Shown here piece after piece: positions 3,375 through 21,218 of a stretch of DNA of 24,242 nucleotides. Each line of letters opens with the position of its first letter. Position 1 is the first letter of the stretch. Source of the stretch: a virus; IMG/VR virus record IMGVR_UViG_3300009181_000327, positions 1 to 24,242 of that record. One strand, 5' to 3'. Position numbers and translations under genes: made by a program. The notes below the pieces were generated by a model. The model did not search any database, was not told the origin of the DNA, and saw nothing but the letters and a program-made list of their open reading frames with translations.

Positions 3375-6300
3375 TCATCCACCACCATTCATAATCTGAT
3401 CATAAAGATCCTTAGGGAAACTATCAGGGAGTTTAGGAAACTCCTTCTGCAACTCAGCCAAAGCACGAGCAGACAAAGCAGCACTAGTCTCACCAAACTG
3501 TGGCAGATACTTATTCATAATAAAATCACGCTTACGCTTCCAATTAACAAGACTATTAATATTCTTAACAAGAGCAGAATCAGTCATCTTAACATCACCA
3601 GTAGACACACCACGATCCTTCTGATCCTGCTTATACTGCTTAAGAAGAGCCTCAGCATTAAGACTCATAGCCCTAACAGGACTAATAAGATTAAACACAC
3701 CAGCCCTAGTACCAGTTGGGAAACGAGTACTAAGTTTATCGCCGGGAATACTCAACTTAGAATTAGGATCATCAGGATTAACAAAAATATCTTCAGGATT
3801 ACTCATACCACGAAGAGCATTCATCTGATCAGGAGACTTAAACAAATCAGTAATAGCCTTCAACGCCGGGAACCCAAGCATAATATTACCGCCCTTAGCA
3901 AGAATACCAGCATCCTTCTCCTCCTGCGACAAAGGAGCACCCGTAAGCGTACTATTACCAGTAAACTGTTCAATAGTAGCATTAATAAACGGATTAGTAT
4001 AATCAAACAAACCCTTACTAGAACCCATAAAACCCTTACCAGCAAGAGCACTAGTACCAGCAACAAGAGCATCAGTAGTAGCACTAAACGGATTCAACCC
4101 ACCAAGAATAAGCCTATTAGACTGCTCAGGATCCAACTCTAAGAAACGCATAAGCGCATCCGGCATAGGAATAGATTCGTACATCCAATCAGGAAGACCA
4201 GCAGCAGCAAGAACCTTCTCAAAACCATACTGCCCAGTATTATAAGCAGCATTAGCAGCCAACGGACGCTCCTGAACAAGACGCTTACTAAACAAAGCAC
4301 TATGACGCTGCCAAGCATAGAACGGCACCAGATAATTACGAATAGCCGTTTCCCAAGGACCAAAGTCACGATAATTACCAAGCACACCATCAGCAGTAAA
4401 CCGAACATGATGCATAAAATTAGGATCATGCACAGGACTATTAGGATCACGAAGCGACTCAAACGCAGCCTGAAAAGGACTCATACGCTCAATACCCACC
4501 TCAGGAATACCAGCAGCCGCTCGCTCCTGAATAGCCTTAGAATTCATAAGACTCTTAAAACCCGGATACTTAAGAGCAGCAGCACGAATAAGAGCAACAC
4601 GCATATTAGTCTCAAACCCGAAAACAACCGTATACCCACCAAACAACGTATACTTAGCCAACTTAGAATCACCAAGTTTACCACCAATACCCTCAGCACG
4701 ATCCATAGCATAAGCATTATCAAGAAAATCATGAGGCATCATACGAGTAAGATAATTAAAATCACTAGCATGATTAGAAAAAATATTCCGATCCTCAGCA
4801 CGAGCACCCTTAGAACGCGCAGCCTTCTGCCACAACCCAGACATAATCTGAGGAAACAACTCTGGCGTAGCCAACCCAACCATCATACTAGAACCAATAA
4901 CATTTTGAGGAATAAACTTAGGATTCAAACTAAGAGTCGTAACCTTAAAGATCTGCGACAACAAACCACCAGTCTTACCAGCAAGAGTATCCTTAAGAAG
5001 AGCATCAATACCCCGCTGAGTAGAAGCAAACCTATCATACGTCTTCCTAGGAACAGCCATAACAATATTATTAGGATTAGAAGTATCAATCTTACTAATA
5101 TCCTCCAAGTAAGCCTTCTCATAATCAGCAGTACCACGAACAACCTTAGTACGCTGCTCAATAACAGTATTAAGCATCACATCAAAATAACGCATCTTAG
5201 TAACAAACTTAGGTTGACCAGCAACCGTAACCTCATCAACAATACCCGGCTCAACCGCGCCAACCTCATTATAATTCATAGCATACCTATACGCCTCATC
5301 GTAAGTATCAAAAAACTTGTGTGTCCTAAGAGCCACAAAATTCTTATTATCAAACTTATCAGCACGAATAGGAATAGCAGTCTCATCAAAGAATTGTGTC
5401 CAACCCTCCGTAGACCTACGACGAAGATAAGAAGCATGAGCATCCAACTGAACCTTCAAATGATAAGACTGAATACCACTAGAAGCAACAACATTATGAT
5501 TAGCCCGTTCCCTATAAGTCTCATTAGCATTAAGACTATGAGTACTCACCTTATCAACCATATCACGAACATTAGGATAAACCTTATTAAGAAAATTAAC
5601 AGCACCAATATGAAGTTGTTTAGCAGCCTGAGCCTTACTCAAAGTAAGAACACCCTTACCATTCTTAGAAGGAACCATAGCACTATAAGGAATAGTAAGA
5701 ATCTCAGGATCCAACAACGGCAACCGCTCATGCGTAGCAGTCTTACCATCAATAATTAGACGCTGACCACGCACAGCAACCGGCTGACCAGCAACCCTAA
5801 CAATCTCATTAACAGTAAAAAACGGCAAACCACCAAGATCCCTAAACGCAAGATCATCCTTAATCTTATTAGCACTATCCCGAATCTCCTGCATAATACC
5901 AACCATCTGATCAGCAGCACCCTTACGCCTACCATACTTACCATCCTGCAAAACAAAATCTTCAGCATAAAGACGCAACTGCTCATTAACATGAAAATTA
6001 GGATTAAACATACCAAGATTCTCACCACTAGCACCCAACTCACGCATAATATCACTAGGATTAAGACGAGTAGCAGTAGTAATAGGACCATACGCCCTCA
6101 AAGCAGCCTCAATAGTAATCGGATCATCAAACGCAGTAAGAAGACGATTCTGCTTCTCAAGCAAACTAACCATAACATTATGCACTTCAGCCAACTGTTT
6201 ACCACGAGGACTAACACCCTCAATAAGATCATTAGTAGTATTAGCATAATCACGCAAAAACTCTGGATCCTCATACCGACGAAGATCAGCAAGATGCATC

Positions 6301-8963
6301 TCCAACTGTGCAGGATCCATACCCTTAGCCTCATCAGCCAACTTACGACGAATAACACTAGCCAGCATAGCAGGAGTATACGGAGCGCCACCAGTAGCCT
6401 GATCCATAATAACCTGTTGTTCTATATCAGTAAGACCCATCTCCTCAATAGCCTTATCATACAGGTGAAGCATACTCATCTCACGACGCACACCCTCAGC
6501 AACACCAAGATGCTGCTCCTTATACGCTTTATCAAACCTATAATTAAAACCAAGCAAAGGAAGATTAGCAATACGAGGAGAAAGTTTACCACCACGAGTT
6601 TGAGCACTAAAAAACGCATTCTGAATACCACGAGCAATAGGACTACCAGCAAACCTCAAAGCAATAGGAGCATCAGGAGCAACAGCCTCAGCGCGACCCT
6701 GATCAACAACACTATGATTACCATCAGAACGCTGCACAATCTTATAACGAGGCTCAAACATACCAGCAACATGGTCCATCAGGCTAGGACGAAGCAGACT
6801 ATTAGAAGCATTAGTACCTTTAGGAAGCAAAAACTCGAGAGTTGCTTTAGCAGAAAGATCCCCAGCAGCAACCTTACGCATAAGAGCAGCATACTCTAAA
6901 CGACTAATACCATAACCATTAGTAGGATGCTCTGTTACAAGACCTTCAACAACCGCCTCATCGCCAAGCGCAGCAGCCTCCCTTTCGGCAAGATCCCGCT
7001 GTCTTTCAGCAACCCCAAAATCAAGCCTAGCGCCAGCCCGATCAAGAATACCACTATAGCCAAGCGGCGCACGAGCCTTACTAAGCCTACTAGTAGCAGA
7101 AACAATCTGACCACCCTTACCAAGCAAACCAACACCATCAACAAGAGCCAAACCATCCAACGCAACAGCAAACGGATCATTAGACAAGTGAGCCTTAAAA
7201 CCATCCCAAGTACCATAATTATGCTTATACTGCTCAACCATATCACCAGTAGTAGTAACAGGATCAGTAGCAAGATAATACAACCCCGGCATAAAACCAG
7301 TACCAGCACGACCAGCACCCTTCACCCAGTTACCAAGCCACCCAGCAAGCCCAGAATCCTCCTCATACGCCAAATAAGACGATTGAGAAGCCAACTCTTG
7401 TGTTTTAAGACCAGCCTGCAAACCCTTACTAAGAGCCTCCACACCACTAGGCAAAACAATATTAGGCGACTGACCCGGATAAGAAACACTATCATCACCC
7501 TTACCAGCAACACCATAAAGCATATCAACAAAATTACCAGCACCAGAACCATCATGCTGATTACCCTCTTTAACCTTAAAGTCACCAATAATAGCCTCTA
7601 AGTAAGGACGCAACGCACCCGGAATAGGATAACCTTTATCCTGCGCGTCAACCGCAGCCTGAATAAGACTAGCCTTCTGAGCCTCCGTAAAACCACGCAT
7701 AGGAGCAGGCTCAAAACGCTTACCACCAAGCACACTCTTATCCTCAACCATACGACCAACACCATCACGCATAATCTGCTCAATAACATTAGCAGGAATA
7801 AGATTACCCATACCAGTCTTAAAAGTCTCACCACCAGACAAAGCATCAAGAAGAGAAGTAAACTGTTGCTCAGGAGTAGCAGGAATCTTACCAGTACCAA
7901 AATAAGTATCAGTAAACTCTTTCTGAGCCTTACCCTGAACCTCTAAAGCCTTAATATCTTCCTTATCATTCTCAGCCATAAGATCCTGAATATTAGCAGC
8001 ATCATTAGCGCGAATGCTCTCCATAGGATCAAAAGCCTTCTTAAGAAGCGACTCTTGAATAAAACGCTCCTGACTAGGACCATAAGTACCATTAGGAGAA
8101 TACATATACTGTCGAAGATTATCAACATCAGCAGCACTATACTTACCAGACATAATCTTATTCCAAAGAGCAGAACCACCTTCACTAGAAATCTTCTTAG
8201 TAATCTTAGACTGCCAAAGAGCCATATCCTTATTATCCTTAGCATAAGAATCAGCCATCTTATTATAATTAATAACAGCGGCTTTACCCTTACCCGTAGT
8301 AGGAACATTAGTAAGATTACCAGCAATACCAAGATTACTCCGCACCCGCTTACCGGCAAGAAAATCTCGTTGAGCCTCAGCAGGAGAAATAGTTTGATCA
8401 ACACCACCATAAGTAGCATACTGAATAGCAGTATCCGTCAAGGACAACTTAGCTGTTTTACGCTTCCACTTACCATCAACATTATTATAATTATCTTTAA
8501 GGAACTGGTTAAGTGCAGGAGTATTAATACTCGTAACAGTCGTATCATACTTACCATCAGGAGTCTTACCGTACGACATAAGACCAGCACGAATCATCTG
8601 CTCACGCTCATCAGTAGTCTGATTAAACGCCATACCCTTAGTATCATACCACGCACGAGCACCAGACAAACGATCCTTAAACAACATCGTATCTACATTA
8701 GCAAATTGCAAGCCAGCAAACGTATCCTTCCGAACAGGAAGCGGAGCAGGACCAATATTATTACTACCCGCATAACCACGATTAGACAATGGTGGAGAAA
8801 CTTGAGTAGGACGAATCATATTTGGAGGAGTATAACCAGCCGTCCCCGGACCACCCGCCCTTAAACGCTTCTTTTTAGCGGCAAGTTCAGCGCGAATCTG
8901 AGCACGGGATTTGGTACTTGGAGTAGCACTACCCGGACCAATGTTAGAAAGATCTAAAGCCAA
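3375..8963 (-). CDS. giant 1862-residue internal virion / polyvalent-type protein
   Basis: The largest gene in the window. The start is TTG 8963, five bases after AAGGAG, and the preceding gene stops at 8998. The N-terminal ~80 residues are disordered and Pro/Gly/Lys-rich. Residues ~540-640 contain hydrophobic, Gly-rich stretches (FAVALDGLALVDGVGLLGKG). Residues ~1330-1700 hold a region I associate with the large polyvalent proteins of phages and plasmids (LPD38-like from memory): hydrophobic helices (TLSLNPKFIPQNVIG), the RNYLVPFYAWQRHS motif near 1538 and a later LILGGLNPFSATTDAL segment. No lysozyme, peptidase or polymerase motif is obvious. Its place after the tail and fibre genes and before the holin, and its size, match the ejected internal proteins of podoviruses. 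A tape-measure role is less likely because long coiled-coil repeats and tail-tube genes are absent. Confidence 0.75.
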   Translation of the reverse strand: MALDLSNIGPGSATPSTKSRAQIRAELAAKKKRLRAGGPGTAGYTPPNMIRPTQVSPPLSNRGYAGSNNIGPAPLPVRKDTFAGLQFANVDTMLFKDRLSGARAWYDTKGMAFNQTTDEREQMIRAGLMSYGKTPDGKYDTTVTSINTPALNQFLKDNYNNVDGKWKRKTAKLSLTDTAIQYATYGGVDQTISPAEAQRDFLAGKRVRSNLGIAGNLTNVPTTGKGKAAVINYNKMADSYAKDNKDMALWQSKITKKISSEGGSALWNKIMSGKYSAADVDNLRQYMYSPNGTYGPSQERFIQESLLKKAFDPMESIRANDAANIQDLMAENDKEDIKALEVQGKAQKEFTDTYFGTGKIPATPEQQFTSLLDALSGGETFKTGMGNLIPANVIEQIMRDGVGRMVEDKSVLGGKRFEPAPMRGFTEAQKASLIQAAVDAQDKGYPIPGALRPYLEAIIGDFKVKEGNQHDGSGAGNFVDMLYGVAGKGDDSVSYPGQSPNIVLPSGVEALSKGLQAGLKTQELASQSSYLAYEEDSGLAGWLGNWVKGAGRAGTGFMPGLYYLATDPVTTTGDMVEQYKHNYGTWDGFKAHLSNDPFAVALDGLALVDGVGLLGKGGQIVSATSRLSKARAPLGYSGILDRAGARLDFGVAERQRDLAEREAAALGDEAVVEGLVTEHPTNGYGISRLEYAALMRKVAAGDLSAKATLEFLLPKGTNASNSLLRPSLMDHVAGMFEPRYKIVQRSDGNHSVVDQGRAEAVAPDAPIALRFAGSPIARGIQNAFFSAQTRGGKLSPRIANLPLLGFNYRFDKAYKEQHLGVAEGVRREMSMLHLYDKAIEEMGLTDIEQQVIMDQATGGAPYTPAMLASVIRRKLADEAKGMDPAQLEMHLADLRRYEDPEFLRDYANTTNDLIEGVSPRGKQLAEVHNVMVSLLEKQNRLLTAFDDPITIEAALRAYGPITTATRLNPSDIMRELGASGENLGMFNPNFHVNEQLRLYAEDFVLQDGKYGRRKGAADQMVGIMQEIRDSANKIKDDLAFRDLGGLPFFTVNEIVRVAGQPVAVRGQRLIIDGKTATHERLPLLDPEILTIPYSAMVPSKNGKGVLTLSKAQAAKQLHIGAVNFLNKVYPNVRDMVDKVSTHSLNANETYRERANHNVVASSGIQSYHLKVQLDAHASYLRRRSTEGWTQFFDETAIPIRADKFDNKNFVALRTHKFFDTYDEAYRYAMNYNEVGAVEPGIVDEVTVAGQPKFVTKMRYFDVMLNTVIEQRTKVVRGTADYEKAYLEDISKIDTSNPNNIVMAVPRKTYDRFASTQRGIDALLKDTLAGKTGGLLSQIFKVTTLSLNPKFIPQNVIGSSMMVGLATPELFPQIMSGLWQKAARSKGARAEDRNIFSNHASDFNYLTRMMPHDFLDNAYAMDRAEGIGGKLGDSKLAKYTLFGGYTVVFGFETNMRVALIRAAALKYPGFKSLMNSKAIQERAAAGIPEVGIERMSPFQAAFESLRDPNSPVHDPNFMHHVRFTADGVLGNYRDFGPWETAIRNYLVPFYAWQRHSALFSKRLVQERPLAANAAYNTGQYGFEKVLAAAGLPDWMYESIPMPDALMRFLELDPEQSNRLILGGLNPFSATTDALVAGTSALAGKGFMGSSKGLFDYTNPFINATIEQFTGNSTLTGAPLSQEEKDAGILAKGGNIMLGFPALKAITDLFKSPDQMNALRGMSNPEDIFVNPDDPNSKLSIPGDKLSTRFPTGTRAGVFNLISPVRAMSLNAEALLKQYKQDQKDRGVSTGDVKMTDSALVKNINSLVNWKRKRDFIMNKYLPQFGETSAALSARALAELQKEFPKLPDSFPKDLYDQIMNGGG

Positions 8964-8997: not shown

Positions 8998-9867
8998 TTA
9001 AGCGCCAGTAGGACCAGCAGGACTAGTAGCGTTAGGAGCGCCACCACCAGCACCCATAAACGACTTGTACGACTTCTTACCACCAGCCTTCTTATACGCA
9101 GCATAAGCAGCCGCATTATTAATATTACCACTAATATACGCCTGCTGATTGCCAGCCATCTTAAAAGGATCATACGCAGCACGCTGCTGATCACGCAAAC
9201 CAGCAATACCAGTAAGAAGCCCCTGCCTACCTTCCATCATTTGAGTCTGCAAACCAGCCGCTTCCGTACCAGCCTGAGTCTTCATCTGATTTAAACGACT
9301 CAACGCTCCACCACGATCAAGCGTCAACTGCATACGAGTAGCAGACTGATTCTTAACATCCTCAGCACCAAGACGAGCAAAATCACTAGCAGCACCACCA
9401 AGAATAGCATTAGAATACACATCACCACCCTGACCACCCATACCAGAAACAGTACCAGCAGTAGTAGCAAGATTAGCCGTCTGCGTAGCATCCGCACCAA
9501 TAGCACCCCCCATAGCACTAGTAGCAGCAGAAACATTAGCGCCACCCTGACCATAATTAGTACCCTTAATCAAAGCAGAAACTTTAGCCAACTGATCAGA
9601 ATAATTTTTATTAATAGCATCATTAGACTGAATACCACTAAGAGCCGCATTATAACCAGCCACACTAGGATCAGCATTAACATCCATACCAGCGCGACGC
9701 TGAGCCTCTAACAAAGCCGGATTCTTAGTAGGATCATACAAATCACTATTAAGAGCATTCTTAGAAGCCTTAATACTACTACTCATACCAAACCGCTGAT
9801 TCTTAATAAAAGCCTTATAAACCGGACTCTTAGGATTCATAAACCACGGAATATTATTTTTAGCCAC
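8998..9867 (-). CDS. putative internal virion protein, Ala/Gly/Gln-rich
   Basis: 289 residues from GTG 9867, which has AAGGGGG (9874-9880) six bases upstream. A TTG six bases further up is in frame but too close to that site. The N-terminus reads MAKNNIPWFMNPKSPVYKAF. A long low-complexity helical middle rich in Ala, Gly, Gln and Thr follows. The C-terminus has a basic patch (YKKAGGKKSYKSF) and a Gly/Pro tail. No enzymatic motif is seen. Composition and order, next to a similar protein and immediately before the giant gene, suggest a member of the set of small ejected or internal capsid proteins. The function is inferred from context only. Confidence 0.6.
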   Translation of the reverse strand: MAKNNIPWFMNPKSPVYKAFIKNQRFGMSSSIKASKNALNSDLYDPTKNPALLEAQRRAGMDVNADPSVAGYNAALSGIQSNDAINKNYSDQLAKVSALIKGTNYGQGGANVSAATSAMGGAIGADATQTANLATTAGTVSGMGGQGGDVYSNAILGGAASDFARLGAEDVKNQSATRMQLTLDRGGALSRLNQMKTQAGTEAAGLQTQMMEGRQGLLTGIAGLRDQQRAAYDPFKMAGNQQAYISGNINNAAAYAAYKKAGGKKSYKSFMGAGGGAPNATSPAGPTGA

Positions 9868-9873
9868 GTTCAA

Positions 9874-9891: not shown

Positions 9892-10593
9892 TTAAATTGT
9901 TTTCCACTTTTTACCATTCCACCGATATTTAACACCAGCAGCATTCTTACGAATCTCTCCAACCTTTTTACCCGGAGTAGCAAGAGGATTAGCAGGAGAA
10001 GTAGGAGCAACAGGAGGCGTTATAGTAGCCTCAACAGTCGCAGGATCCGCAGGAGCGACAACAGTAGCAGCACTTGTTTTCAAAGCGTCAGCCTCCGCAG
10101 CCTTAATCTTATCCTCAGTAATAGCAGTCTGAAGAGCCTGATACGCACTACCAATAGGCTGATTAGCCTGAGCAAACTGAGACAAATAATCACTTTTAGC
10201 AGCACCCAACTGACCCGCAGTCTGACTCTCAGCAAGCATACGCCTCTGATTAGCCAAACCACCTAAACCAGTACCAGTAGCAGCACTCTGCGCCATAGCA
10301 TCAGCCTCAGCAGAACCACCACTACGCATCACATCACTAAGAATACCCTGACCACCAATACGCATTTGACTTGCCGCAGCATCAAACTTAGCCTGATCAA
10401 GAATACCAGTTGTTTTATCGTACAAGTTATTTGGATCAAACGCAGTACCCGTAGCGTTGGTATCATAACCACCAGTAGCATTAGGCATAGTCCAACCATA
10501 CTGAGCAAACAAACTATTCTGAGCATTACGCGCTTGATTTAAAGAATCTTGATAAAGAACAGCCGCACGACCAGCATTACCTTCAATACTCAT
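9892..10593 (-). CDS. putative virion structural protein, Ala/Gln-rich
   Basis: 233 residues. ATG 10593 overlaps the TGA of the upstream mini-fibre gene (ATGA), so translation is coupled. The N-terminal ~170 residues are Ala/Gln/Gly-rich helices (e.g. MAQSAATGTGLGGLANQRRM), a composition shared with the next gene. A Pro/Ala linker (~185-210) separates this from a short C-terminal motif, GVKYRWNGKKWKTI, a compact Tyr-Trp-Gly-Trp module seen at the end of various phage structural proteins. It is probably an internal or tail-associated protein. The similarity of style to the following gene suggests a paralogous pair, but I cannot align them convincingly by eye. Confidence 0.6.
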   Translation of the reverse strand: MSIEGNAGRAAVLYQDSLNQARNAQNSLFAQYGWTMPNATGGYDTNATGTAFDPNNLYDKTTGILDQAKFDAAASQMRIGGQGILSDVMRSGGSAEADAMAQSAATGTGLGGLANQRRMLAESQTAGQLGAAKSDYLSQFAQANQPIGSAYQALQTAITEDKIKAAEADALKTSAATVVAPADPATVEATITPPVAPTSPANPLATPGKKVGEIRKNAAGVKYRWNGKKWKTI

Positions 10594-10855: not shown

Positions 10856-12262
10856 TTATAGTTCGGCAGACCAGCCCAAATAGGCTGCGGTAGTAGAGTT
10901 GGCTAGTGCCATACTGCTATTTCCGGCAGTAAGACTTGCAGCCGCAACAGTATAATTTACATTACTTCCTTGAGGGGTAGCGCTATTAAAAGTAGGTATT
11001 GCAGTACAAGCAACTACTGTTCCCGAAGCATTGTATAATGCATAGTTTGCTGCTGTACCAGATTGTTCTAATGTGGTAGGCGGAGTACGCATTGTTGTTG
11101 GATAAGGAACAAAAATTACCGCCGAGGTTGCCGCTGTTGCAAGTCCTGTCCCAAAAACATGCGTGTTAGCACTAGCATTTTGGCTGGTATTTCGATAATA
11201 GTATCTTTGACAACGACGCAACTCATTACCATAATCATAAAACTCAAACTCGCTAGGAGCAGCGCCTTTTTCTAGTTGAACACCAGAATAAGTAATTGTT
11301 TGCGTACTAGCGTTGCCACCCGTAGCAAACACAATTTCAATACCCGTAGTAGCCGCAGACGGAATATCAAAAGTAGCAGAATAATAAGCGTCAGTAGCCG
11401 TAACACCACTAAACGTACCAGTAGCAATTTGTGTACGAGTAGGAACATTATAAGTCCCAAAACTATCCGTAGTTGTCGCGTAATACGCCGTCCAAATAAC
11501 ACTAGTAATGCTGCTTGCAGAAATAGTTGCCGACAATGTTGCCGTCTTACCCGCCAAATAGTTTGTATTGACAGCCTCCAAACGAGTGCCAAGGCGCGTA
11601 CCCGTATTACCAAGACCACCCGTAAAACGAATAGCATTAGTATACGGAGTGGTACCAGCAATACGCTGAATACTATTATTAGCACCCACAGCAACCGCAT
11701 ACCACCTATCAACCGTATACGCAAGAACAGTACCAATAGCAGTAAGAGTCTGACTAGCACCATTATTACGCTGATCAACCGCAAAACCACCATTAATAAT
11801 CGCATTACGATTAGGCTTAACGTCTGCCTGCATCCAACGATTAGCACTACCATAAGACACATACTTAAGCAACTCGTCAGTATCAGTCTGATAAATCATC
11901 TGACCAGCAATAGGACTAGCAGGACGAGCAGCAGTATTAGCCACAACCGTATGCCCAGCATAACCAGAAAGATCCAACTTACTAGAAACAATAGCAGCAT
12001 TAGTATTAACCATAGCATTAGTAATAACATTAGCCACAGGCGTACCAGCAGAAACACTACCAATAAGAGCATTAACATAAGCAGTACTAGCAATCTTAGT
12101 GCTACTATCACTAGTACTAGGCGTAATACCAAGACTATAAGTATTACCAATAGTTTCCATACGATCCGCTAACTCTTTAATCCTTGTTGCAACATTAGAC
12201 AGACTATCCCCACCTAAGGGGTATGGGTACTGGTATGTTGTTGTTGTGGCTGTTGTTGCCAT
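10856..12262 (-). CDS. tail fibre / receptor-binding protein
   Basis: 468 residues. The site GAGGAGGT precedes ATG 12262. The N-terminal ~70 residues (Thr-rich start, then IKELADRMETIGNTYSLG) form a short attachment helix. At ~105-130 is the ARPASPIAGQMIYQTDTDEL stretch typical of fibres that carry a sampled-parameter linker. From ~150 the pattern NAIINGGFAVDQRNNG followed by YTVDRWYA starts a beta-sandwich, closing at ~325-350 with GVQLEKGAAPSEFEF and ELRRCQRYYYR. This is a common phage receptor-binding or carbohydrate-binding fibre module. The last ~110 residues are Thr/Ala/Ser-rich beta sequence. Codons switch from T/G-ending to more A/C-ending near 11200, in the C-terminal tip, suggesting an exchanged host-range segment. 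Confidence 0.8.
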   Translation of the reverse strand: MATTATTTTYQYPYPLGGDSLSNVATRIKELADRMETIGNTYSLGITPSTSDSSTKIASTAYVNALIGSVSAGTPVANVITNAMVNTNAAIVSSKLDLSGYAGHTVVANTAARPASPIAGQMIYQTDTDELLKYVSYGSANRWMQADVKPNRNAIINGGFAVDQRNNGASQTLTAIGTVLAYTVDRWYAVAVGANNSIQRIAGTTPYTNAIRFTGGLGNTGTRLGTRLEAVNTNYLAGKTATLSATISASSITSVIWTAYYATTTDSFGTYNVPTRTQIATGTFSGVTATDAYYSATFDIPSAATTGIEIVFATGGNASTQTITYSGVQLEKGAAPSEFEFYDYGNELRRCQRYYYRNTSQNASANTHVFGTGLATAATSAVIFVPYPTTMRTPPTTLEQSGTAANYALYNASGTVVACTAIPTFNSATPQGSNVNYTVAAASLTAGNSSMALANSTTAAYLGWSAEL

Positions 12263-12272
12263 TTATACCTCC

Positions 12273-13085
12273 TCAGGTTTTAATAATATAATTAAGTGAT
12301 ATACTTGGTTGGACAAGACTTACGGCTACCGGAGTTGAACCATTATCGCCAGTATTTGCAGGGAGAGTATGGGAATGGTCAAGGCTTCCGCCCGTACCAG
12401 AACTTTGGGAGGTAATAGAACCAGTAATACTCCCAGAAGCAGTAAATAGGTTTGCTCCACTTTGAAGCGGAATAAGAATACTGCCTGCCGATGTTCCTCT
12501 TTGAGTATTGGCAAAAGCAATGATAGTTGAAGCACCAAGGCTATGAGCATGACTATGACTAGCATTAAAACTACCCGTAGTACCACCCAAAGAGTGCGTA
12601 TGGTTAGGCAAATCATTGTTATTCAAGGTTCTTGTATACGCACCGGGATTTTTATTAAGCGTACTAATGTCAGGATTACTAGTCTGCGTAGACTTCACAC
12701 CAACAGGAACATTACCGCGCATATCAGGAAGATTAAACGTAGTAGAACCATCACCAACACCATAAGTAGTACCAATAATAGTAAACAAAGCAGAATAAGC
12801 AGTACGACTCACAGCAGCACCATCACACAATAACCAACCATTAGGAACATCCTGACGAGTACCCGGATTAGGCGTAACACCCGGACCACCAGCAAAAGGA
12901 ACAATAACACCACTAGGAAAAACAACACCAGTTGTTAAAGAACCAGACGCACCAGAAACACTAGAAGAAGCATTATTAACTTGTGACTGCTTAGTATACG
13001 AGTTAATCTCATTACGAACATTATTCATAATATAATTTTCGTACTCCTGCTTACCCTGCTCACTAGTCAAATCGCCAGTAAACAT
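12273..13085 (-). CDS. tail fibre with phage collar domain
   Basis: 270 residues. ATG 13085 lies two bases after the stop of the nozzle gene. Residues 1-35 form a charged helix (EYENYIMNNVRNEINSY). Residues ~53-130 are a clear phage tail collar domain: GVIVPFAGG, then NGWLLCDG at 82-89, then YSALFTIIGTTYG, then FNLPDMRG. His-rich motifs follow (LPNHTHS ~159, HSHAHS, LDHSHT), as in trimeric fibre tips where they bind metal, and the protein ends in the conserved LNYIIKT. It probably forms trimeric short fibres attached to the nozzle. Codons in the last ~85 residues (12273-12530) shift towards A/C endings compared with the rest. Confidence 0.88.
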   Translation of the reverse strand: MFTGDLTSEQGKQEYENYIMNNVRNEINSYTKQSQVNNASSSVSGASGSLTTGVVFPSGVIVPFAGGPGVTPNPGTRQDVPNGWLLCDGAAVSRTAYSALFTIIGTTYGVGDGSTTFNLPDMRGNVPVGVKSTQTSNPDISTLNKNPGAYTRTLNNNDLPNHTHSLGGTTGSFNASHSHAHSLGASTIIAFANTQRGTSAGSILIPLQSGANLFTASGSITGSITSQSSGTGGSLDHSHTLPANTGDNGSTPVAVSLVQPSISLNYIIKT

Positions 13086-13087: not shown

Positions 13088-16000
13088 CTAGACCCTACTC
13101 GCTCGCATAGGCTTAAACCCAATATCCCACGACTCTAACTCAACCACAAAAGGACGCTCACCCAAACTAAACTTAGGCGCACGATAATTATTCATCTGAT
13201 ACAATCTAAAACCCATAGTAGGATACCTCCAAGACATACGCTGCTTACGCCGCTCATACAACGTATTAGTAACATTATACCAAGACGACACAAGTAACTC
13301 AACATTACTCCAAGTAGAGCGATTAGGACTAAGTTTAGCAGGCAGAATTAAATCCTCAAACTTATCCCAAGTAAAAGACACGCCACCAAAAGTCTCCCAA
13401 TTAACATGCCGCTTCTTAGTAATATCAATCTCATCATTATCCTCATTATCAACAATATCAAGCCGCACAGCACCATCAATAAGATACAAGTTTAAAAATA
13501 ATTGTCTAAACCACTTTTTAAGAATAGGATCCCCCATGCTATAATGCTTGGTTTGCATGTAGAAGTCTGGTCCTTTAATATAATTATTTGGACTCATTCC
13601 TAGATTTTCGATTAGAACTTCGTCTGTTCCAGTTGTGTAGTTTGCGTTGATGTTTAAGATTGCATCTACGTCGATTAGTCGTGCGTATACGCCTGTTTGT
13701 GCGACTGTTCCGTTAGGTGCTACGTTGATTGTACTAAACGTACTATTAACAGGCTTACTATAAGTAAGCGTTGTTGTAGTAGGAACGGTAGCAATAGTGT
13801 AAATACCATTAAACTCAGCGTCAATACCCGACACAGTAATACTACCACTAGTAAGACCATGAGGAACACTAGTAGTAATAGTAGCAACAGTACCAGCACT
13901 AGACTTTTTAACCACACTAAACTCTGTAGGATTAACAGCATTAGCAGCAACAACTGCTTTAAGGCCAGTAAGAGACTCTTGTTTAATAACTCCTCTAAAC
14001 CCAAAGTTACTAATAACACTAATAGCACCCGTAGGGAGGTAGACCGCAAACGTTAAGCCTTCCGTCTGGTTGAGCGGTCCCCAAATATACTGATACCCTA
14101 ACGCTCCCCAAAAGAAAGAAGCAGGAGCATTACTCATTTGAATATTAGCCGGATTAGGCGTATCAGTAAAACTAGACGAAGCAGCAGTAGTATTAACATT
14201 CATAGTTAAACTTGTTGGACGCTTTTTATCAATAACAGTACCAGCAACCGTTTGAGCACCAGTAGTAGTATTAGCATAAGTAAACGTTGTTGATGTAGGA
14301 ACAGTAAGAATAGTATAAGTACCATTATACCCAAGCGGTGTTACACCTGAGATAACAACATTAGTTCCAACAGTAAAACCGTGGGCTGTGCCTGTTGTAA
14401 TTGTTGCTATTGCGCCTGTACCACTAGTAACTGTGGTTGCAAAGAAAGGTACTGGAGGGCTTGTAACACCCGCGCCTGTTGCCAAGACCTGCGTAGGCGT
14501 TGTAGCACTATACGGCATTCCTTGTCCTGTAAAGTATGGTCCGTTAGGAAGAACAAAAACATTACCTGCAACTGTTTGTGCTCCAGTAGTAGTATTAGCA
14601 TAACTAATTGAACCCGTTCCAGCAGCCGTAGTAGGAACAACCCAACTTGTAACAGGATAAATACCATTATACCCCGTTGGTGTAACACCAGTAACTAGAA
14701 CATACTCACCAGCAGCACGAACACTATGAGTCACACCAGCAGCAAGAGTAATTGTAGCCGTCGTGCCTGTTCCCGCAGTACCAGTAGTAGCATACCCAGA
14801 CGTTAAAGCAGTAAGCCCACCATTAGAATCAGAAATAATAGGACCCGTAGGAAGAAACTCAATATAAACATTACTATTAGCAACAAAACCAACATTAGAG
14901 TTAGTAGTATTATCATATGCAATTGTAGTAGGAGTAATAGCACTAACACGATAAGTACCATTATACCCGTTAGGAGTAACACCAACCACCCTAATCCACG
15001 AATTAACATTAACACCATTAGGATTAGTAGACGCATTATAAGTAACGCCAGCAGGCACAGTAAACGTACCAGTACTAGCAGTAACCGCTAATGCGGTTGG
15101 AAAAATATTGGATTGAACATTAGCAACAAGACCTGTAAGATTAGGACTAGCCGCTGTAAAAGAAACATTATTAAAAGACACACCCTGCTGCCAAGCACCA
15201 ATAAGACCACTACCAGCACCACTAGAATTAGAATACAACACATTACGATTCCAATAAATAGGCGTATTACTATTAGGACTAAGATCATCAAACGTAAAAT
15301 CAGGATCCCAATCATCATAAGTAAACCCACTAATAGCAGCCGTACCATCAACAGTACCAGCATAAATAGGCTCATAACGAATAGGATTATAAATACTCTT
15401 CCAAGCATTAAAATGCATAAACAAGTAATCCTTATGAAAAAATCCGTAAGCCCTATTAACCTGAGGATCATAATTCTTAATACTCTCAGGATAATACAAA
15501 CCAAGATTATCCTTACTAAGATTACGAACCGTAGTACCATCAAACAAGAAGATACCCGTTTTACTAGCCCAGAAAACACCACCACCATACTCAACAATAC
15601 TCATACTAGACAAGCAGCCCTCGGGATACAATTCTTCTAGACTAAAATTAAAACGACTATTACCTCGAAGACGATACGTTTTATCAGACATAAAAATAAT
15701 TAGTCCACTAGCAGAGGTTGCTAATCCGCGCATCTCTGAGAGGCCGGGAATAATAATACTGTCTGCGTCGTTGGCAGATAAGTCTACGGATTCAGGATCA
15801 TTATAAGCACTAAATACAATACGATTACGATTAGTTGTGTCTCCAGCATTGCCGTACCATTGTAGTCCGGCATACGTTGCTGTGAAGATTCCGGCTACGT
15901 TTGTTGCTGATCGTCCTGTTATATTAGCAGAAACAGTTGCTGTTGTGTATGGTCGTGCAGTATACTCGTCTGCTTTAAGAGTAATAGCAGTAGCAGGAAA

Positions 16001-17035
16001 AAACGTTGCATTCATAGTAAGCGTAGTATTATCTGCCACACTAGCAACATCACCAAGCCAAGCACCATCATTAGCCCTATATAAAGCCCAACCAGTATCA
16101 ACACCAGCACTCTTCCAATGCCCCTCAGCATCACTACCAGCATTACCACTAACCATAACCTGCGTAGCACCAGTCACACCACTAATAAGTCCACGACCTT
16201 GATTTTTAATAAAAGGACGCACATTATACGTTTTAAGGGTAGCGCCAGCACCAATCATTGTAGCAATAGTAGTGTTTGCTTGTGTACCATAAACAGGACG
16301 AATCAAATCTTTCTCTAAAGTAATACTTGTAGCCGTAGCACTAAGAACCGTACCAGCATAATATTCTACACCAGTAGTACCATTAACAAGAAAAACAAAC
16401 ATGCCGGGAGTAGGAATAATATTATTATTAGCAGTAAAAGTAAGTCCCGTACCAAAAGAACCAGTATTAGTACCGCTAGTACCAGACCTAAAAGTACCAG
16501 CAAGCGGAGCGGCATACGTTGTCTCTACACCACAACCACCACGCCAATAATACTGAGCATAATCATTACTACTAGAAACATAAGAATACCCTTGCTCAAG
16601 AAAACTAAGCCACATACCAGTAGTAGAAGCATTCTTAACATCAAAAATCGCATCCTGAGGCATAGGAATAACAGTAGAAACCGTATTAAAACCAGCAGTA
16701 TTATGCGTACCACGATTATTAGCATCAAGAAAAAGAATACGACTAGTAACATTATTAGTAACAAGCATACCACTAATACGCTGACCAAGAGGATTAAGAG
16801 TAGAAAAAGCGGAAACAACACGCTCACCAGCAACACTAAACTGAGTAATAGTAGGCGTAGCAGCCTGATTATAAACAGGAAAAACCGTATGCGGAGCGCG
16901 ACGACGAAGAAGACCATTACGATCAAAAAGAATATCCTGCCCCCAACGAACAAAATCCTCAGGAATACTAACACCACTACCCGACTGGTTCAAACCACTA
17001 ATAGCACCAATCTGATTAGCATAAGTCAACGCCAT
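13088..17035 (-). CDS. tail nozzle/tubular protein with inserted Ig-like repeats
   Basis: 1315 residues from ATG 17035, seven bases after GGGGGTG. An in-frame GTG six bases up is too close to that site. Residues ~400-510 carry the signature of short-tailed phage nozzle (tail tubular B / P22 gp10-like) proteins: FSAYNDPESVDL, LATSASGLIIFMSDKTYRLRG broken by strands, then GGGVFWASKTGIFLFDG. The C-terminal ~120 residues (KKWFRQLFLNLYLIDG, then WRYPTMGFRLYQM) look like the end of the same fold. Between ~650 and 1100 lie four modules with the pattern VSGVTPxGYNGTYTI..VPT..TFTYANTT, an Ig-like repeat seen in phage tail proteins. Without the insert the length would be close to the ~800 residues usual for the family. 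Codon use switches several times inside the gene. Confidence 0.75.
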   Translation of the reverse strand: MALTYANQIGAISGLNQSGSGVSIPEDFVRWGQDILFDRNGLLRRRAPHTVFPVYNQAATPTITQFSVAGERVVSAFSTLNPLGQRISGMLVTNNVTSRILFLDANNRGTHNTAGFNTVSTVIPMPQDAIFDVKNASTTGMWLSFLEQGYSYVSSSNDYAQYYWRGGCGVETTYAAPLAGTFRSGTSGTNTGSFGTGLTFTANNNIIPTPGMFVFLVNGTTGVEYYAGTVLSATATSITLEKDLIRPVYGTQANTTIATMIGAGATLKTYNVRPFIKNQGRGLISGVTGATQVMVSGNAGSDAEGHWKSAGVDTGWALYRANDGAWLGDVASVADNTTLTMNATFFPATAITLKADEYTARPYTTATVSANITGRSATNVAGIFTATYAGLQWYGNAGDTTNRNRIVFSAYNDPESVDLSANDADSIIIPGLSEMRGLATSASGLIIFMSDKTYRLRGNSRFNFSLEELYPEGCLSSMSIVEYGGGVFWASKTGIFLFDGTTVRNLSKDNLGLYYPESIKNYDPQVNRAYGFFHKDYLFMHFNAWKSIYNPIRYEPIYAGTVDGTAAISGFTYDDWDPDFTFDDLSPNSNTPIYWNRNVLYSNSSGAGSGLIGAWQQGVSFNNVSFTAASPNLTGLVANVQSNIFPTALAVTASTGTFTVPAGVTYNASTNPNGVNVNSWIRVVGVTPNGYNGTYRVSAITPTTIAYDNTTNSNVGFVANSNVYIEFLPTGPIISDSNGGLTALTSGYATTGTAGTGTTATITLAAGVTHSVRAAGEYVLVTGVTPTGYNGIYPVTSWVVPTTAAGTGSISYANTTTGAQTVAGNVFVLPNGPYFTGQGMPYSATTPTQVLATGAGVTSPPVPFFATTVTSGTGAIATITTGTAHGFTVGTNVVISGVTPLGYNGTYTILTVPTSTTFTYANTTTGAQTVAGTVIDKKRPTSLTMNVNTTAASSSFTDTPNPANIQMSNAPASFFWGALGYQYIWGPLNQTEGLTFAVYLPTGAISVISNFGFRGVIKQESLTGLKAVVAANAVNPTEFSVVKKSSAGTVATITTSVPHGLTSGSITVSGIDAEFNGIYTIATVPTTTTLTYSKPVNSTFSTINVAPNGTVAQTGVYARLIDVDAILNINANYTTGTDEVLIENLGMSPNNYIKGPDFYMQTKHYSMGDPILKKWFRQLFLNLYLIDGAVRLDIVDNEDNDEIDITKKRHVNWETFGGVSFTWDKFEDLILPAKLSPNRSTWSNVELLVSSWYNVTNTLYERRKQRMSWRYPTMGFRLYQMNNYRAPKFSLGERPFVVELESWDIGFKPMRASRV
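14244..14279 (+). repeat. 36-bp direct repeat, copy 1
   Basis: Matches 14568-14603 at 33 of 36 positions and encodes the end of an Ig-like module (YANTTTGAQTVA). The shared core is CCAGTAGTAGTATTAGCATA. Confidence 0.7.
14568..14603 (+). repeat. 36-bp direct repeat, copy 2
   Basis: Second copy of the repeat at 14244-14279, with three differences, two of them silent-type changes. It marks the same place in the neighbouring module and suggests a fairly recent module duplication. Confidence 0.7.
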
Positions 17036-17058
17036 ACACACTCACCCCCAATCATAAA

Positions 17059-17703
17059 CTAATAAGACCAATCATACGAATCCGTAATAACACCAATACG
17101 CTCAGGACGATCATACTGATTCATCCACACATCCGCTCGCATCTGCTGATAACGAGACTCAAACATATTCTGAAACACAGCAGCCTGCGGATCATCATTA
17201 ACAAGAAACGCTTTAACAAGCGCACCATACACAATAATACTATGATGACGAGCAGGTAAATAAAACTCTGTAGACGCAGTAACAGCAGCAACTGGAACCT
17301 TAGTATAATACAAACGATACGTCGTATCACCACTAGTAGCAGGATACACCATCAACTCATCACCAAGAAAATAATACTTAGTAGGAGTACCAGTATAAGC
17401 ACCGACAATAAATTGTTTCTCCATAACATCAGCACGCTCAGGAGTCATAACAAGCATATTAGTCATATCCGTAAAACTAAGAACACTATTAACATCAGTA
17501 ACATTATTAGTCACAAGAGTATTATTAGTAATCTGCGTCTGACCAGAAGGAACAATAATAGTCTTCATAGCCTCAAGAAAAGGCCACGGCTCACGAGTAG
17601 CAATATCAAAATATGCCTCATTAAGAAGCGTAAGTTTCTGCGAATCCTCAAGATCATCAAAACCATACAACTCCATCTCAGTATACATCTCATCAAGCGT
17701 CAC
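17059..17703 (-). CDS. head-to-tail adaptor / connector protein
   Basis: 214 residues from GTG 17703, chosen because AAGGGGGTGG (17710-17719) lies six bases upstream and the product begins MTLDEMYTEMELYGFDD. The start overlaps the previous gene by 11 bases. The opening continues with KLTLLNEAYFDIATREPWPF. This helix with the ExWPF ending is the hallmark of small connector proteins that sit under the portal (SPP1 gp15 / P22 gp4-like gateway proteins). The middle has beta-hairpin segments (KYYFLGDELMVYPATSG) and the C-terminus a helix (FQNMFESRYQQMRADVW). Its place between capsid and nozzle genes agrees. Confidence 0.75.
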   Translation of the reverse strand: MTLDEMYTEMELYGFDDLEDSQKLTLLNEAYFDIATREPWPFLEAMKTIIVPSGQTQITNNTLVTNNVTDVNSVLSFTDMTNMLVMTPERADVMEKQFIVGAYTGTPTKYYFLGDELMVYPATSGDTTYRLYYTKVPVAAVTASTEFYLPARHHSIIVYGALVKAFLVNDDPQAAVFQNMFESRYQQMRADVWMNQYDRPERIGVITDSYDWSY

Positions 17704-18121
17704 TCTTAACCACCCCCTTCTTATCATTAGGAAACACCTTAACAACAGGACTCTTACCATTATTACGAAGCATTTTCTCAATACGCTCAGCAGCATCACT
17801 ACTAGCCTGATCCGCCAAATAACGCTTCTCTTCCTTCACCTTATTCTGTTCTTTAACAATCATATCAAACAGTTTATCACCATGAATACGAACATCAGAC
17901 TCACGCAAACGCTTACAAATATAATCAGGATGCGGAACATTCTTACCCACACCAAGAACAGCAACAGGCTCCTCAGGAAACGGCATACGCATATAAACAC
18001 AATAATCACCAGTATCCTCATTCAACTTAAAACTAAGATTCTGATCATACGCATTAACAGCACAATGCACCCTATACACAGAACTATCAACAGTCCCCTC
18101 ACCCGGAATATAAATCTTCAC
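17693..18121 (-). CDS. conserved-looking hypothetical head protein
   Basis: 142 residues from GTG 18121, one base after the stop of the upstream gene. The N-terminal ~60 residues are beta-rich (MKIYIPGEGTVDSSVYRVHC...). The middle (~75-115) is a charged helix (FDMIVKEQNKVKEEKRYLAD) and the tail is basic (VFPNDKKGVVKSDA). I recognise no family. Its place between the capsid and adaptor genes suggests a minor head or neck protein. Its 3' end overlaps the adaptor start and contains the adaptor's ribosome site. The GTG has only GTGGGA at about eight bases as a candidate site, so coupling to the preceding gene is likely. Confidence 0.65.
   Translation of the reverse strand: MKIYIPGEGTVDSSVYRVHCAVNAYDQNLSFKLNEDTGDYCVYMRMPFPEEPVAVLGVGKNVPHPDYICKRLRESDVRIHGDKLFDMIVKEQNKVKEEKRYLADQASSDAAERIEKMLRNNGKSPVVKVFPNDKKGVVKSDA
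17710..17719 (-). promoter_or_regulatory. Shine-Dalgarno site deciding GTG 17703
   Basis: AAGGGGGTGG sits six bases before GTG 17703 inside the end of the preceding gene. It rules out the long upstream extension of this frame as the real N-terminus. Confidence 0.7.
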
Positions 18122-18499: not shown

Positions 18500-19831
18500 T
18501 TACACACCAGTATCAGCAGAACCATTAACAGTAATACCCGAAAGCACACCATTCTTACCACGGTTCGTAGCGCCAAGATTCATGTAACGAGTCATGATAG
18601 CCTCATAAGCATCATAACCAATCACCTGACGAAGCGTCTGACCATCAGCATCAAGAAAATGCCAATCCTGATCCGAAAATACCTTAAGAGTAGATTCGTC
18701 AATAAAGTACATGTTACCAAAAGGAGCGTCAATATCGCCAACAACAGGAACACCATTGTAAGAGACACTATTGAAGCCTGCCTTAAAGTCCATCGTGCCG
18801 TCCGAAACATCATAGATAGGAGTACTAGAACCATTAACAAACGTTAACAGGCGATAGAACTCGCGCATGACACCCAGCGTCGTAATAATCATACTAGTCT
18901 GTCCACCCTTAGTGCGAACAGTATTAGCCATCGTCTGCATAGCCTGAAGCGACAACGCTCCACCAACAGCAGTACGCTGATTATCCCAATACTGATCAGC
19001 ATTAGCGTCAATCTGACCAAGCGTCTGATAACCAGAGTTACCAACCGTCGAAGACGACGGAGCAGACGTAGTAATAATACGCTGCAAACCATCAACCTCA
19101 TTAGAACGCGCAGCAAGCGCATTCTTATTAAACCCGGTCGTAGTAGCACCAGTACGAGTCCAAGACTGACTAACTGCTACAGTACCAGCACCACCATAGA
19201 CACTAATAGTAGACGTTGCCGCACCAACAATACTAACACTCTTTACCGTCCAACCAGTAGCCGCAAGCGTAGGCGTACCAGAACTGTAAGTAACCCCATC
19301 AAGAACCGAACCAGCATAAATCTGGCCCTTCTTAAGAGATTCCCAACTTGCAAGTTCAACAACATACGGAGCCGCAAACGTACCCGACCCAGTAATAGCC
19401 GTAGAAGTACCGACAGCAATAATAGCGTCACCAGTACCATACGTCTGACGAGCAAGATCCTTACCAAGATCGGCACGGATACCATCCAACTCGGCCTTAA
19501 GAATCTGCAAGAACGAGCCTACATCACTCTTAGTCTTAGCCATCGACGGACCAGTAACCTGAATCCGACCATACAAGTACTTAAGATCGTACTGCGCCTT
19601 AGCATACGTCTGATTACCCGCAGAGGGCAACGCAGCCGACTCTGAAACGGCACCAATACCACCAGAACGACCCGTATGAAGCGGCACAATAGCCACGCGA
19701 CCAACAAGATCCTCAGAACGCGCCTCAAGACGCTGAACGAGGAGCACCTCATTATTCAACTGTTCCTGAACAGGACCAAGATAATACTCCTTAAGAATAT
19801 TGTCAACAGTTGTTAAAGTTCCACCAGCCAT
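18500..19831 (-). CDS. major capsid protein
   Basis: 443 residues from ATG 19831, with GGAGGTG (19838-19844) six bases upstream. The N-terminus MAGGTLTTVDNILKEYYLG leads to LVGRVAIVPLHTGRSGGIGA, with a glycine loop, and then YDLKYLYGRIQVTGPSMAKT. These are features of HK97-fold capsid proteins of podo- and siphoviruses of this type. A Thr/Ser/Gly-rich insertion (~170-240) may be a surface Ig-like domain. Downstream motifs include MIITTLGVMREFYRLL and YNGVPVVGDIDAPFGNMYFI, the usual P-domain end region, and a final YEAIMTRYMNLGATNRGKNG. It follows the scaffold gene and is closed by its own terminator, as expected for the most abundant protein. Codons for Asn, Tyr, Ile and Asp end in C more often than in neighbouring genes, fitting high expression. 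Confidence 0.9.
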   Translation of the reverse strand: MAGGTLTTVDNILKEYYLGPVQEQLNNEVLLVQRLEARSEDLVGRVAIVPLHTGRSGGIGAVSESAALPSAGNQTYAKAQYDLKYLYGRIQVTGPSMAKTKSDVGSFLQILKAELDGIRADLGKDLARQTYGTGDAIIAVGTSTAITGSGTFAAPYVVELASWESLKKGQIYAGSVLDGVTYSSGTPTLAATGWTVKSVSIVGAATSTISVYGGAGTVAVSQSWTRTGATTTGFNKNALAARSNEVDGLQRIITTSAPSSSTVGNSGYQTLGQIDANADQYWDNQRTAVGGALSLQAMQTMANTVRTKGGQTSMIITTLGVMREFYRLLTFVNGSSTPIYDVSDGTMDFKAGFNSVSYNGVPVVGDIDAPFGNMYFIDESTLKVFSDQDWHFLDADGQTLRQVIGYDAYEAIMTRYMNLGATNRGKNGVLSGITVNGSADTGV

Positions 19832-19837
19832 AAAACA

Positions 19838-19844
19838 CACCTCC
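19838..19844 (-). promoter_or_regulatory. strong Shine-Dalgarno of the capsid gene
   Basis: GGAGGTG lies six bases before ATG 19831. It excludes an in-frame TTG five codons upstream as the start. Confidence 0.8.
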
Positions 19845-19856
19845 AAAATAATTTAA

Positions 19857-20666
19857 TTAAGAATTATTACGAAGGGCCTCCATTGCAGCCTTATGCGCGT
19901 CATCCAACGAAGCAAAGCCCCGATTAGGTTGACTAGATAAAGCCGTAGGAACAGACGTAGCACCCAAAGGCACCTGCTTAGCCTGAAGATAATTACCCAA
20001 AAGATGCTGCTGAATAGCATGATACTGTTCAGAAGCCGCAATAAGATCACCATCAGTAGAATAAGCCAGATTATAAATAACAGACAAATCCTCATCACCA
20101 TAAGTAGGATTCATCGTTTTAATAGTCTGTTCCTGATGTTCTAACTCGCCAATATACTCTTGCTGAACGCGCTCCTGTTCGAATTGCGCTCTAAACTGTC
20201 GCATATCCTCTAACTCTGCGGCTAGAGAAGGCGGAAGACCCTCATAATCACTAAACTCTGGAGCGTATTCCTCAACCTGCTGCTCATCATAACCCATTTC
20301 TTGTAAGCGATTCTGCATAGCGGAAACAAACTGATGTGCAACATCAGGGTCCGTATCCATAGCCTGCCACATCTGGAGAATATTATTCGCCTCAGTAGGA
20401 TCAACTCCAGTATCCGAAAAAGCCTCGTAATTACGACGCAAATCGGCAATCTCCTGAGTCTTACGAGTGTAATCAGCCTGCATAGACCGATAAACTTGCT
20501 GCATATCTTCAGGTAAAACATTCGGATCAAACTTAGTAAACGATTCCACTTCTGGATTGTCGTCAAACACAGCGTCCGAAACAGTAGACTCATCTACACC
20601 CTCGTAAGAGTCAGGCAGATCAGCCTGAAGAGCGCTCATAGCACCCTCCACATCAATTTCACTCAT
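19857..20666 (-). CDS. scaffolding protein
   Basis: 269 residues, very acidic at the N-terminus (MSEIDVEGAMSALQADLPDS...). A helical, Gln/Glu-rich middle (~50-180; MQADYTRKTQEIADLRRNYE and similar) leads to a C-terminal helix with basic residues (FASLDDAHKAAMEALRNNS), the usual capsid-binding end of scaffolds. It lies directly before the capsid gene and three bases after the HTH gene. The ribosome site is AAAGGGGT, five bases upstream. No protease motif is seen. It would guide procapsid assembly and leave before packaging finishes. Confidence 0.82.
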   Translation of the reverse strand: MSEIDVEGAMSALQADLPDSYEGVDESTVSDAVFDDNPEVESFTKFDPNVLPEDMQQVYRSMQADYTRKTQEIADLRRNYEAFSDTGVDPTEANNILQMWQAMDTDPDVAHQFVSAMQNRLQEMGYDEQQVEEYAPEFSDYEGLPPSLAAELEDMRQFRAQFEQERVQQEYIGELEHQEQTIKTMNPTYGDEDLSVIYNLAYSTDGDLIAASEQYHAIQQHLLGNYLQAKQVPLGATSVPTALSSQPNRGFASLDDAHKAAMEALRNNS

Positions 20667-20669: not shown

Positions 20670-21218
20670 CTACCCCTTTAATACTAAGAGTCCAGATGAT
20701 TCTGGTTGCTCTTCTACCTCCACATCAATAATCTCCCCAGCACGATTCTCAGCCGCACCAACAAGACCATCAACAAACCCGCCCATAAGTTCCTTCATAT
20801 CCTCACGCGAAGGAAGAATCTGAACGGTTTCAGTACGTTTAGTAGCCAACCCAGTAGCAAGACGAATCTTATCATCCATAATGCCCACTACCGTAGCAAT
20901 AGCACTCAATTGTCTAACTTCAGCCTGAGGAATTAACTCCTCCAACTTATTCATAGCATTCTCACGAACACGATTAGCATGATGAACAAACTCGTATAAT
21001 TGTGCCGGAAGTTCATCCATAACCGCATCTGGCGGCCCATCCTCATTCCAACCCTTAACCCAATAACGAAGAGTATTAGCCGGAATCCCACACTCACGCG
21101 CAGTCTTCTTAACATTCTTATCATTAGACACCCAAAGAACATACGCCGCAGCACGATCCTTATCGTCCCACTCAACTCGTTTATAAGCCAACCTTAGCCG
21201 CCTTCTGTTCAGCCGCAT
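20670..21218 (-). CDS. helix-turn-helix protein, terminase small subunit-like
   Basis: 182 residues if started at ATG 21218, which overlaps the portal end by 38 bases; the true start could also be a nearby TTG at about residue 10. A DDKDRAAAYVLWVSND helix leads to VKKTARECGIPANTLRYW at ~36-53, a helix-turn-helix like those of small terminase and transposase-type DNA-binding domains. A middle helix (LPAQLYEFVHHANRVREN) and an acidic tail (EIIDVEVEEQPESSG) follow, as in oligomeric small terminases. Small terminase genes usually lie before the large subunit, so its place between portal and scaffold is unusual. The large subunit's upstream neighbours are outside the window, so another small subunit could exist. 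Alternatively it is a regulator. Confidence 0.65.
   Translation of the reverse strand: MRLNRRRLRLAYKRVEWDDKDRAAAYVLWVSNDKNVKKTARECGIPANTLRYWVKGWNEDGPPDAVMDELPAQLYEFVHHANRVRENAMNKLEELIPQAEVRQLSAIATVVGIMDDKIRLATGLATKRTETVQILPSREDMKELMGGFVDGLVGAAENRAGEIIDVEVEEQPESSGLLVLKG

Follow-up and report, generated by a model that had tools for sequence, protein, structure and literature searches.

What causes one phage gene to switch codon style abruptly, several times over, while its reading frame stays open? The question is raised by a putative tail nozzle gene on an IMG/VR virus contig of 24,242 bases (the window, in which all the genes studied lie on the minus strand), where codons ending mostly in T or G are interrupted by patches of codons ending in A or C. 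Genes or replichores are the scale at which strand skew is usually interpreted, and transcription-associated skews, too, extend over genes or replichores, whereas here the sign changes within a single gene, over stretches of tens of codons. No report of sub-gene runs of T/G and A/C style in phages was found in the open-access literature, covered mostly as titles and the opening lines of abstracts. Transcription-associated strand asymmetry is treated, in the available part of a review, as damage to the exposed non-template strand (PMC10030826). The available part of a study of phage codon-usage landscapes describes tail genes as mosaic, and proposes recent recombination for differing codon usage (PMC2266997); the landscapes given there use codon adaptation and GC3, while here it is the T/G-A/C axis that has runs and the GC class has little.

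Here we report that the patches are real, and that patch-like runs extend through the related phages. Our preferred, still tentative reading, with a probability of roughly 0.43, is that they are short tracts in which the coding-strand T/G asymmetry of the clade at silent sites is reversed to A/C, and which were moved by recombination. If the sign of a strand skew can flip over tens of codons, silent-site style would record a strand-oriented process in fine detail for phages known from contigs alone, and an abrupt change of codon style within a gene need not mean foreign DNA.

Gene set and identity of the nozzle protein

The gene that carries the patches (positions 13,088-17,041, minus strand) encodes 1317 amino acids and matched PHROG 3287 (E 1.6e-12). 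Its upstream neighbour is an SU10-type adaptor gene (17,059-17,799, minus strand), and a P22-like portal gene lies at 21,181-23,511 (minus strand), a neighbourhood as known for the tail nozzle of podoviruses and crAss-like phages. One window gene matched a PHROG major head family. Relatives are named by their contigs (L001, L002 and so on). The fold of the 944-residue nozzle of L002 was predicted at moderate confidence (mean pLDDT 64), and the model aligned with the phicrAss001 tail protein (7qol_P; Z 20.9, rmsd 3.5, 396 residues aligned), P22 gp10 (8eap_D; Z 19.6, rmsd 4.1, 389 residues) and the SU10 nozzle (7z4b_DW; Z 19.4, rmsd 3.7, 408 residues). The first 14 rows of this fold comparison were phage tail proteins, with unrelated propeller proteins close behind (Z 17-18), and Foldseek TM-scores were low, at most 0.29 for the first phage matches of the model. 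The nozzle profile gave no match to solved structures up to E=1, and tblastn of the nozzle against annotated phages gave no match. The name nozzle, which a sequence-only reading of the window had used, is nevertheless reasonable for the 1317-residue protein, backed as it is by the predicted fold of a relative and not by sequence. SU10 gp17 is built of a platform, a seven-bladed propeller and a nozzle domain, according to the available part of its description (PMC9509320), and the L002 model resembles it in fold, although profile matching did not. The patches are a feature of the DNA and not part of this SU10-like fold.

Two further observations concern the coding content. A module of about 70 amino acids (residues 866-937 of the window's nozzle, 14,230-14,446) is repeated or moved among nozzles, with an extra copy in L001 and one near the N-terminus in L002. 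The 1862-residue protein encoded at 3375-8963 matched nothing in Pfam or PHROG at E 0.001.

Blocks of A/C-ending codons in the nozzle gene

Third bases of the nozzle gene were T in 63%, G in 17%, A in 13% and C in 7% of codons, giving 80% T/G and 20% A/C, and the A/C codons were packed into blocks, which were delimited by two-state segmentation of the third bases. Patch 1 comprises two such blocks on the minus strand, 1a at residues 356-402 (15,836-15,976; A/C fraction of third bases, A/C3, 0.72), which is T/G-coded in L001 and in four other aligned relatives, and 1b at residues 417-447 (15,701-15,793; A/C3 0.68). Patch 2 (residues 833-887; 14,381-14,545, minus strand), the weakest of the three main patches, is interrupted and consists of sub-blocks at 14,519-14,545 (A/C3 0.89) and 14,381-14,488 (0.67); its region is present in the window and L001 and mostly absent from the four other aligned relatives. 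Patch 3 (residues 1104-1164; 13,550-13,732, minus strand) is the strongest, with A/C3 0.80, and is common to L001. A minor block was called at residues 988-1002 (14,036-14,080, minus strand; A/C3 0.60).

The longest A/C run was 16 codons and the densest stretch held 28 A/C codons in 30, while 2000 shuffles that preserved the amino acids reached at most 9 and 18, respectively. The nozzle frame is intact throughout. The blocks are thus far beyond chance, and the abrupt A/C patches that the sequence-only reading had described within a T/G gene are borne out by segmentation and shuffling alike. Its limits for patches 1 and 3 were right to within about 20 bases; the middle block is interrupted and stops 75 bases short of the end that it had proposed. 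All three blocks that it listed were recovered, but the list was incomplete, lacking the minor nozzle block and the blocks in other genes.

Blocks in other genes and in relatives

The A/C fraction was 5% in the portal gene, 7% in the gene for the 1862-residue protein and up to 31% in the gene at 199-1650. Segmentation placed minus-strand blocks in the collar gene (12,276-12,413 and 12,447-12,503), the tail-fibre gene (12,215-12,262, 11,180-11,209, 11,015-11,149 and 10,859-10,927), the gene at 199-1650 (622-792 and 352-468) and the gene at 19,857-20,666 (20,178-20,225). It found none in the genes for the portal (uniform in T/G style, A/C3 0.05, and our internal control), the major capsid and the 1862-residue protein, or in the genes at 8998-9873 and 9892-10,593. 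One more call, at 17,704-17,787, was read as an over-extended start and rejected; it sits in the overlap with the frame at 17,693-18,121. Across the related loci, in which the genes were named from place and size only, 18 of 26 loci had a block inside the gene just downstream of the nozzle (tail-fibre region), and the portal-size gene had none in any of the 27 loci where it was present.

Among 38 nozzle frames, some of them near-identical, A/C3 ranged from 0.04 to 0.21 and no frame was A/C-style overall. A further scan gave 37 nozzle loci, of which the three on new contigs stand outside that tabulation. Near-identical nozzle loci were removed before lineages were counted and segment trees built, the trees also leaving out two incomplete loci. 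Besides the window and L001, seven lineages have blocks of their own (L012, L013, L019, L021, L023, L024 and L043). The blocks of 26 other lineages pile up at positions equivalent to residues 977-996 and 1130-1152 of the window's nozzle, where the minor block and patch 3 lie. These peaks were reached by none of 1000 circular shifts (28 lineages, 853 core columns, corrected for amino acids), a p-value that is optimistic because the lineages are partly dependent.

A/C blocks even stronger than those of the nozzle were seen in a terminase gene (L090, 12,675-14,141, minus strand) and its 57 relatives, 49 of which were aligned together with 6 other loci, 8 being left out. In the main terminase clade (23 lineages), many lineages have blocks within the first 345 residues, and residues 349-489 stay T/G (mean A/C 0.03-0.21 per 12-codon bin), with a style boundary near residue 345 common to lineages. 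An outgroup of terminases, 50-59% identical, has an A/C fraction of 0.50-0.57.

Comparison with the closest relative

Between the window and L001, the portal has a protein identity of 0.98 and a codon identity of 0.95, and residues 451-1000 of the nozzle have 0.94-1.00 and 0.88-0.96. Codon identity, counted where the amino acid is shared, is 0.30 at residues 351-400 and 0.58 at residues 401-450, that is, at patch 1. This patch lies in an island divergent from L001 (residues 151-450; 15,692-16,591, minus strand), in which 50-residue segments have an amino acid identity of 0.46-0.90 and a codon identity of 0.30-0.85. Its downstream edge is sharp and its upstream edge blurred, residues 51-150 standing at 0.78-0.80 in amino acids and 0.85-0.90 in codons. 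The two phages share patches 2 and 3, with codon identity near background (0.82-0.94), and a bounded rise in silent divergence was found at patch 1 only.

Because its low codon identity falls inside a protein-divergent island, patch 1 was probably exchanged or replaced after the window and L001 split. In segment trees L001 was the sister of the window in six of seven segments, and at patch 1 the window stood beside L001 plus L002; at patch 3, L002 left the clade of the window and L001, weakly (identity residual z -0.9 to -1.2). The mosaic recombination suggested by the sequence-only reading is supported for patch 1 only. A single recent import does not explain the nozzle patches. The sequence-only reading was also right that swapping of the nozzle tip cannot account for every patch.

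Evidence for an effect on DNA

Decoding seems less likely than DNA as the level at which the cause acts, since the first bases of leucine codons flip along with neighbouring third bases. With rising A/C content of the neighbouring third bases, the ratio CTR/(CTR+TTR) rose in four long records (0.17 to 0.68) as well as in the window plus L001 (0.06 to 0.30); as controls, the outgroup was flat (0.90, 0.91) and T7 plus lambda fell (0.71, 0.63). A silent effect beyond the wobble base, as in transcription-associated asymmetry, is thus present at the first base of purine-ending leucine codons. In the window plus L001 it is limited to these codons, all CTN falling from 0.59 to 0.46. The window has no tRNA gene, and tRNA genes occur in all four long relatives, mainly for Leu (caa, taa) and Gln (ttg) (L083, L084, L087, L089, L093, L094). 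A decoding effect is not fully set aside, owing to the purine-only leucine effect in the window plus L001 and the Leu tRNA genes of the relatives.

The style also runs along genes in the clade at large. After correction for amino acid and gene mean, nine clade sets (the window, and four records divided according to A/C content) had a lag-1 autocorrelation of A/C versus G/T third bases of 0.08-0.22; for T7, lambda, ctEw122 and six outgroup contigs it was between -0.03 and 0.03. Purine/pyrimidine and GC classes of the clade gave -0.04 to 0.06, and seven plus-strand genes of the opposite arm of L089 gave 0.17-0.33, uncorrected. Clade frames above 55-60% A/C had been dropped before the autocorrelation and leucine tests. 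This run structure is clade-wide, and the nozzle patches are its most extreme case. At 4-fold sites T:G was 0.67:0.24 in the T/G (K) state and A:C 0.44:0.22 in the A/C (M) state, roughly a mirror composition in which the M state keeps 22% T; the mirror spans 4-fold, pyrimidine and purine boxes alike.

In four records of 43-45 kb, the T/G fraction of third bases (K3) was 0.78-0.81 on the late strand and 0.58-0.72 on the other, spurious antisense frames included. The T/G bias tracks the coding strand on both gene arms, which is like transcription-associated asymmetry as far as the accessible text of the review describes it (PMC10030826), and a skew due to replication only was set aside on this ground. 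Nearby style flips shared their direction more often (0.62, n=215, within 3 codons; 0.65, n=226, at 4-10 codons) than distant flips (0.51, n=249, beyond 20 codons), in counts where one genome pair entered twice and some pairs share members. In its strand-oriented runs of changes this is like kataegis, although the kataegis papers, in the parts available, deal with deaminases in tumours, yeast and animal viruses.

Silent differences followed the style in part. At 4-fold sites in T/G regions of close pairs, G-T was the commonest difference (141 of 267); in A/C-rich regions, transitions made up 13 of 22 and A-C only 3 of 22. In the A/C blocks of the main terminase clade A-C was the commonest silent difference in each of three distance bins (0.42 of 12, 0.27 of 26 and 0.29 of 107), and G-T led or tied in the T/G blocks across these bins. 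Within the second terminase clade, the leading difference in A/C blocks was A-G, with A-C making up 0.17 of 6 and 0.14 of 21. The transitions in close pairs and the A-G differences in the second clade resemble erosion more than a mirror regime still at work. Amino acids drifted toward A/C-rich codons in the main terminase clade (0.195, SE 0.07) and showed no drift in the nozzle (-0.018, SE 0.063); the genome-wide amino-acid correlation was slight (0.025 in the four records, 0.006 in the window plus L001, 0.016 in T7 plus lambda).

Alternative explanations

The main rival, which we hold possible but doubtful, is mosaic import, with the patches as fragments of an unsampled lineage with A/C-ending late genes that are eroding toward T/G. 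It accommodates the position of patch 1 inside the divergent island, the internal blocks of the tail-fibre region genes, the weak departure of L002 at patch 3, and the predominance of transitions in A/C-rich regions of close pairs and of A-G in the second terminase clade. The choice between A and C over all terminase pairs, which agreed at 0.695 against 0.508 by chance, is also in its favour, but agreement was only 0.33-0.41 in the five least similar pairs (15-27 sites each). The relative of different strand bias invoked by the sequence-only reading did not appear among the 38 nozzle frames, and terminase relatives at least 69% identical reached a maximum A/C3 of 0.45. A strict pattern for a fully A/C-coded nozzle motif gave 0 matches in the viral collection, and a search of bacterial genomes for the nozzle C-terminus gave 135 pattern stretches, none of them confirmed. 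Silent cassettes on the opposite strand were rejected as a source, the nozzle matches in 15 records each lying on one strand in one open frame. Any donor must moreover have had a near-identical protein, for in one 30-codon block the terminases of L090 and L086 share 0.93 of their residues and only 0.07 of their codons. Also against import, no 12-codon bin after residue 348 reaches 75% A/C in the 23 main-clade terminases.

Selection that acts on certain domains, through translation speed or the choice of codons (tRNA supply), would agree with blocks at recurrent homologous positions, with the shared terminase boundary near residue 345 and with the tRNA genes of the four long relatives. We consider it improbable, and the translation speed raised by the sequence-only reading is disfavoured, as the leucine first bases flip too; the mirror extends across all three kinds of codon box, and L109 and L120 are nearly block-free (A/C 0.05 and 0.02) despite a terminase 83-87% identical. 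Recurrent positions would likewise be expected of a conserved RNA structure or an overlapping gene that fixes the third bases, an explanation to which we give very little credence. All three antisense frames hold stops in 10 of 11 blocks tested, one antisense frame being open across a 26-codon block in L019, and no same-strand frame of at least 80 amino acids extends past the edge of patch 1 or 3. Folding of the sense strand was unremarkable, with a mean z of -0.52 over 8 patch windows and -0.31 over 41 keto windows, and lends no support to the mRNA structure that had been offered as a cause; the antisense strand gave -0.77 and -0.20 in the same windows. Rfam gave 0 matches, and patch 1 is missing from L001. 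An assembly chimera could be suspected in a record that is a single IMG/VR contig, but is hardly credible when patches 2 and 3 recur in the separate contig L001, other lineages have blocks of their own and the frame is intact.

Proposed mechanism and an antisense promoter candidate

The common cause looks like a reversal of strand asymmetry at the DNA level. Under our preferred reading of reversed tracts moved by recombination, the T/G style would have been left by mutation on the coding (non-template) strand, exposed when genes are transcribed. Such damage to the non-template strand fits the way T/G tracks the coding strand on both arms, and a local flip then asks for exposure of the other strand; A/C tracts would form where this happened, the simplest setting being a local antisense transcript. 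Relatives would then exchange such tracts by homologous recombination, and ordinary T/G pressure would erode them. The more specific proposal that short antisense transcription units in late genes left the blocks behind as fossil footprints, spread by recombination, we regard as unlikely; if it were true, past antisense RNAs could be read from third-base style.

For patch 3, the antisense start may be an extended -10 promoter-like site on the plus strand (13,518-13,545; TTAAGA, 16 bases, TATAAT, with TG before the -10; 10 of 12 matches), which points into the patch and ends 5 bases before its block. Its score was unmatched by any of 6136 keto control windows, and its -10 is kept in L001. No plus-strand promoter-like site is listed for patches 1 and 2. 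Over 96 edge clusters, with frames above 45% A/C removed beforehand, the antisense promoter-like score stood at 5.18 for the predicted (3') edge and at 4.49 for controls (p=0.0003), with no rise at the 5' edge (p=0.56). Sense-strand scores at the 3' edge were also up (p=0.008), the antisense effect had p=0.07 in the 41 long blocks, and the overall enrichment was small.

At the patch 3 site, TATAAT goes with a raised A/C fraction (0.45-0.75) in the window, L001, L012, L024 and L043, and 11 lineages with TAAAAT have 0.05-0.19. The exceptions are L030, with TATAAT and no patch, and L013, L021 and L031, with A/C and no TATAAT. TAAAAT is itself a fair -10, so that the contrast is not a clean one. 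Antisense sequences at the terminase boundary, inspected by eye, showed no -10 by which A/C and T/G lineages could be cleanly told apart. At the end of patch 3 away from the promoter-like site, a hairpin weakly resembling a terminator (13,753-13,769, plus strand; 7 pairs, 3 of them G-C) was rejected, such hairpins being at chance level (3 against 3.4 expected) and the stem being lost in L001. These data hint at antisense transcription at patch 3, which we treat as a lead and not as a result.

The major capsid gene

The major capsid gene (18,500-19,846) has 10% C-ending codons, above most T/G genes of the window, and the gene at the capsid position in L004 has 23%; the raised share is possibly due to translational selection. 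With the capsid as query a single relative was found. Against L001 the capsid protein contains an island of low identity (0.40-0.46) at residues 151-250 (19,097-19,396), and the rest is more similar.
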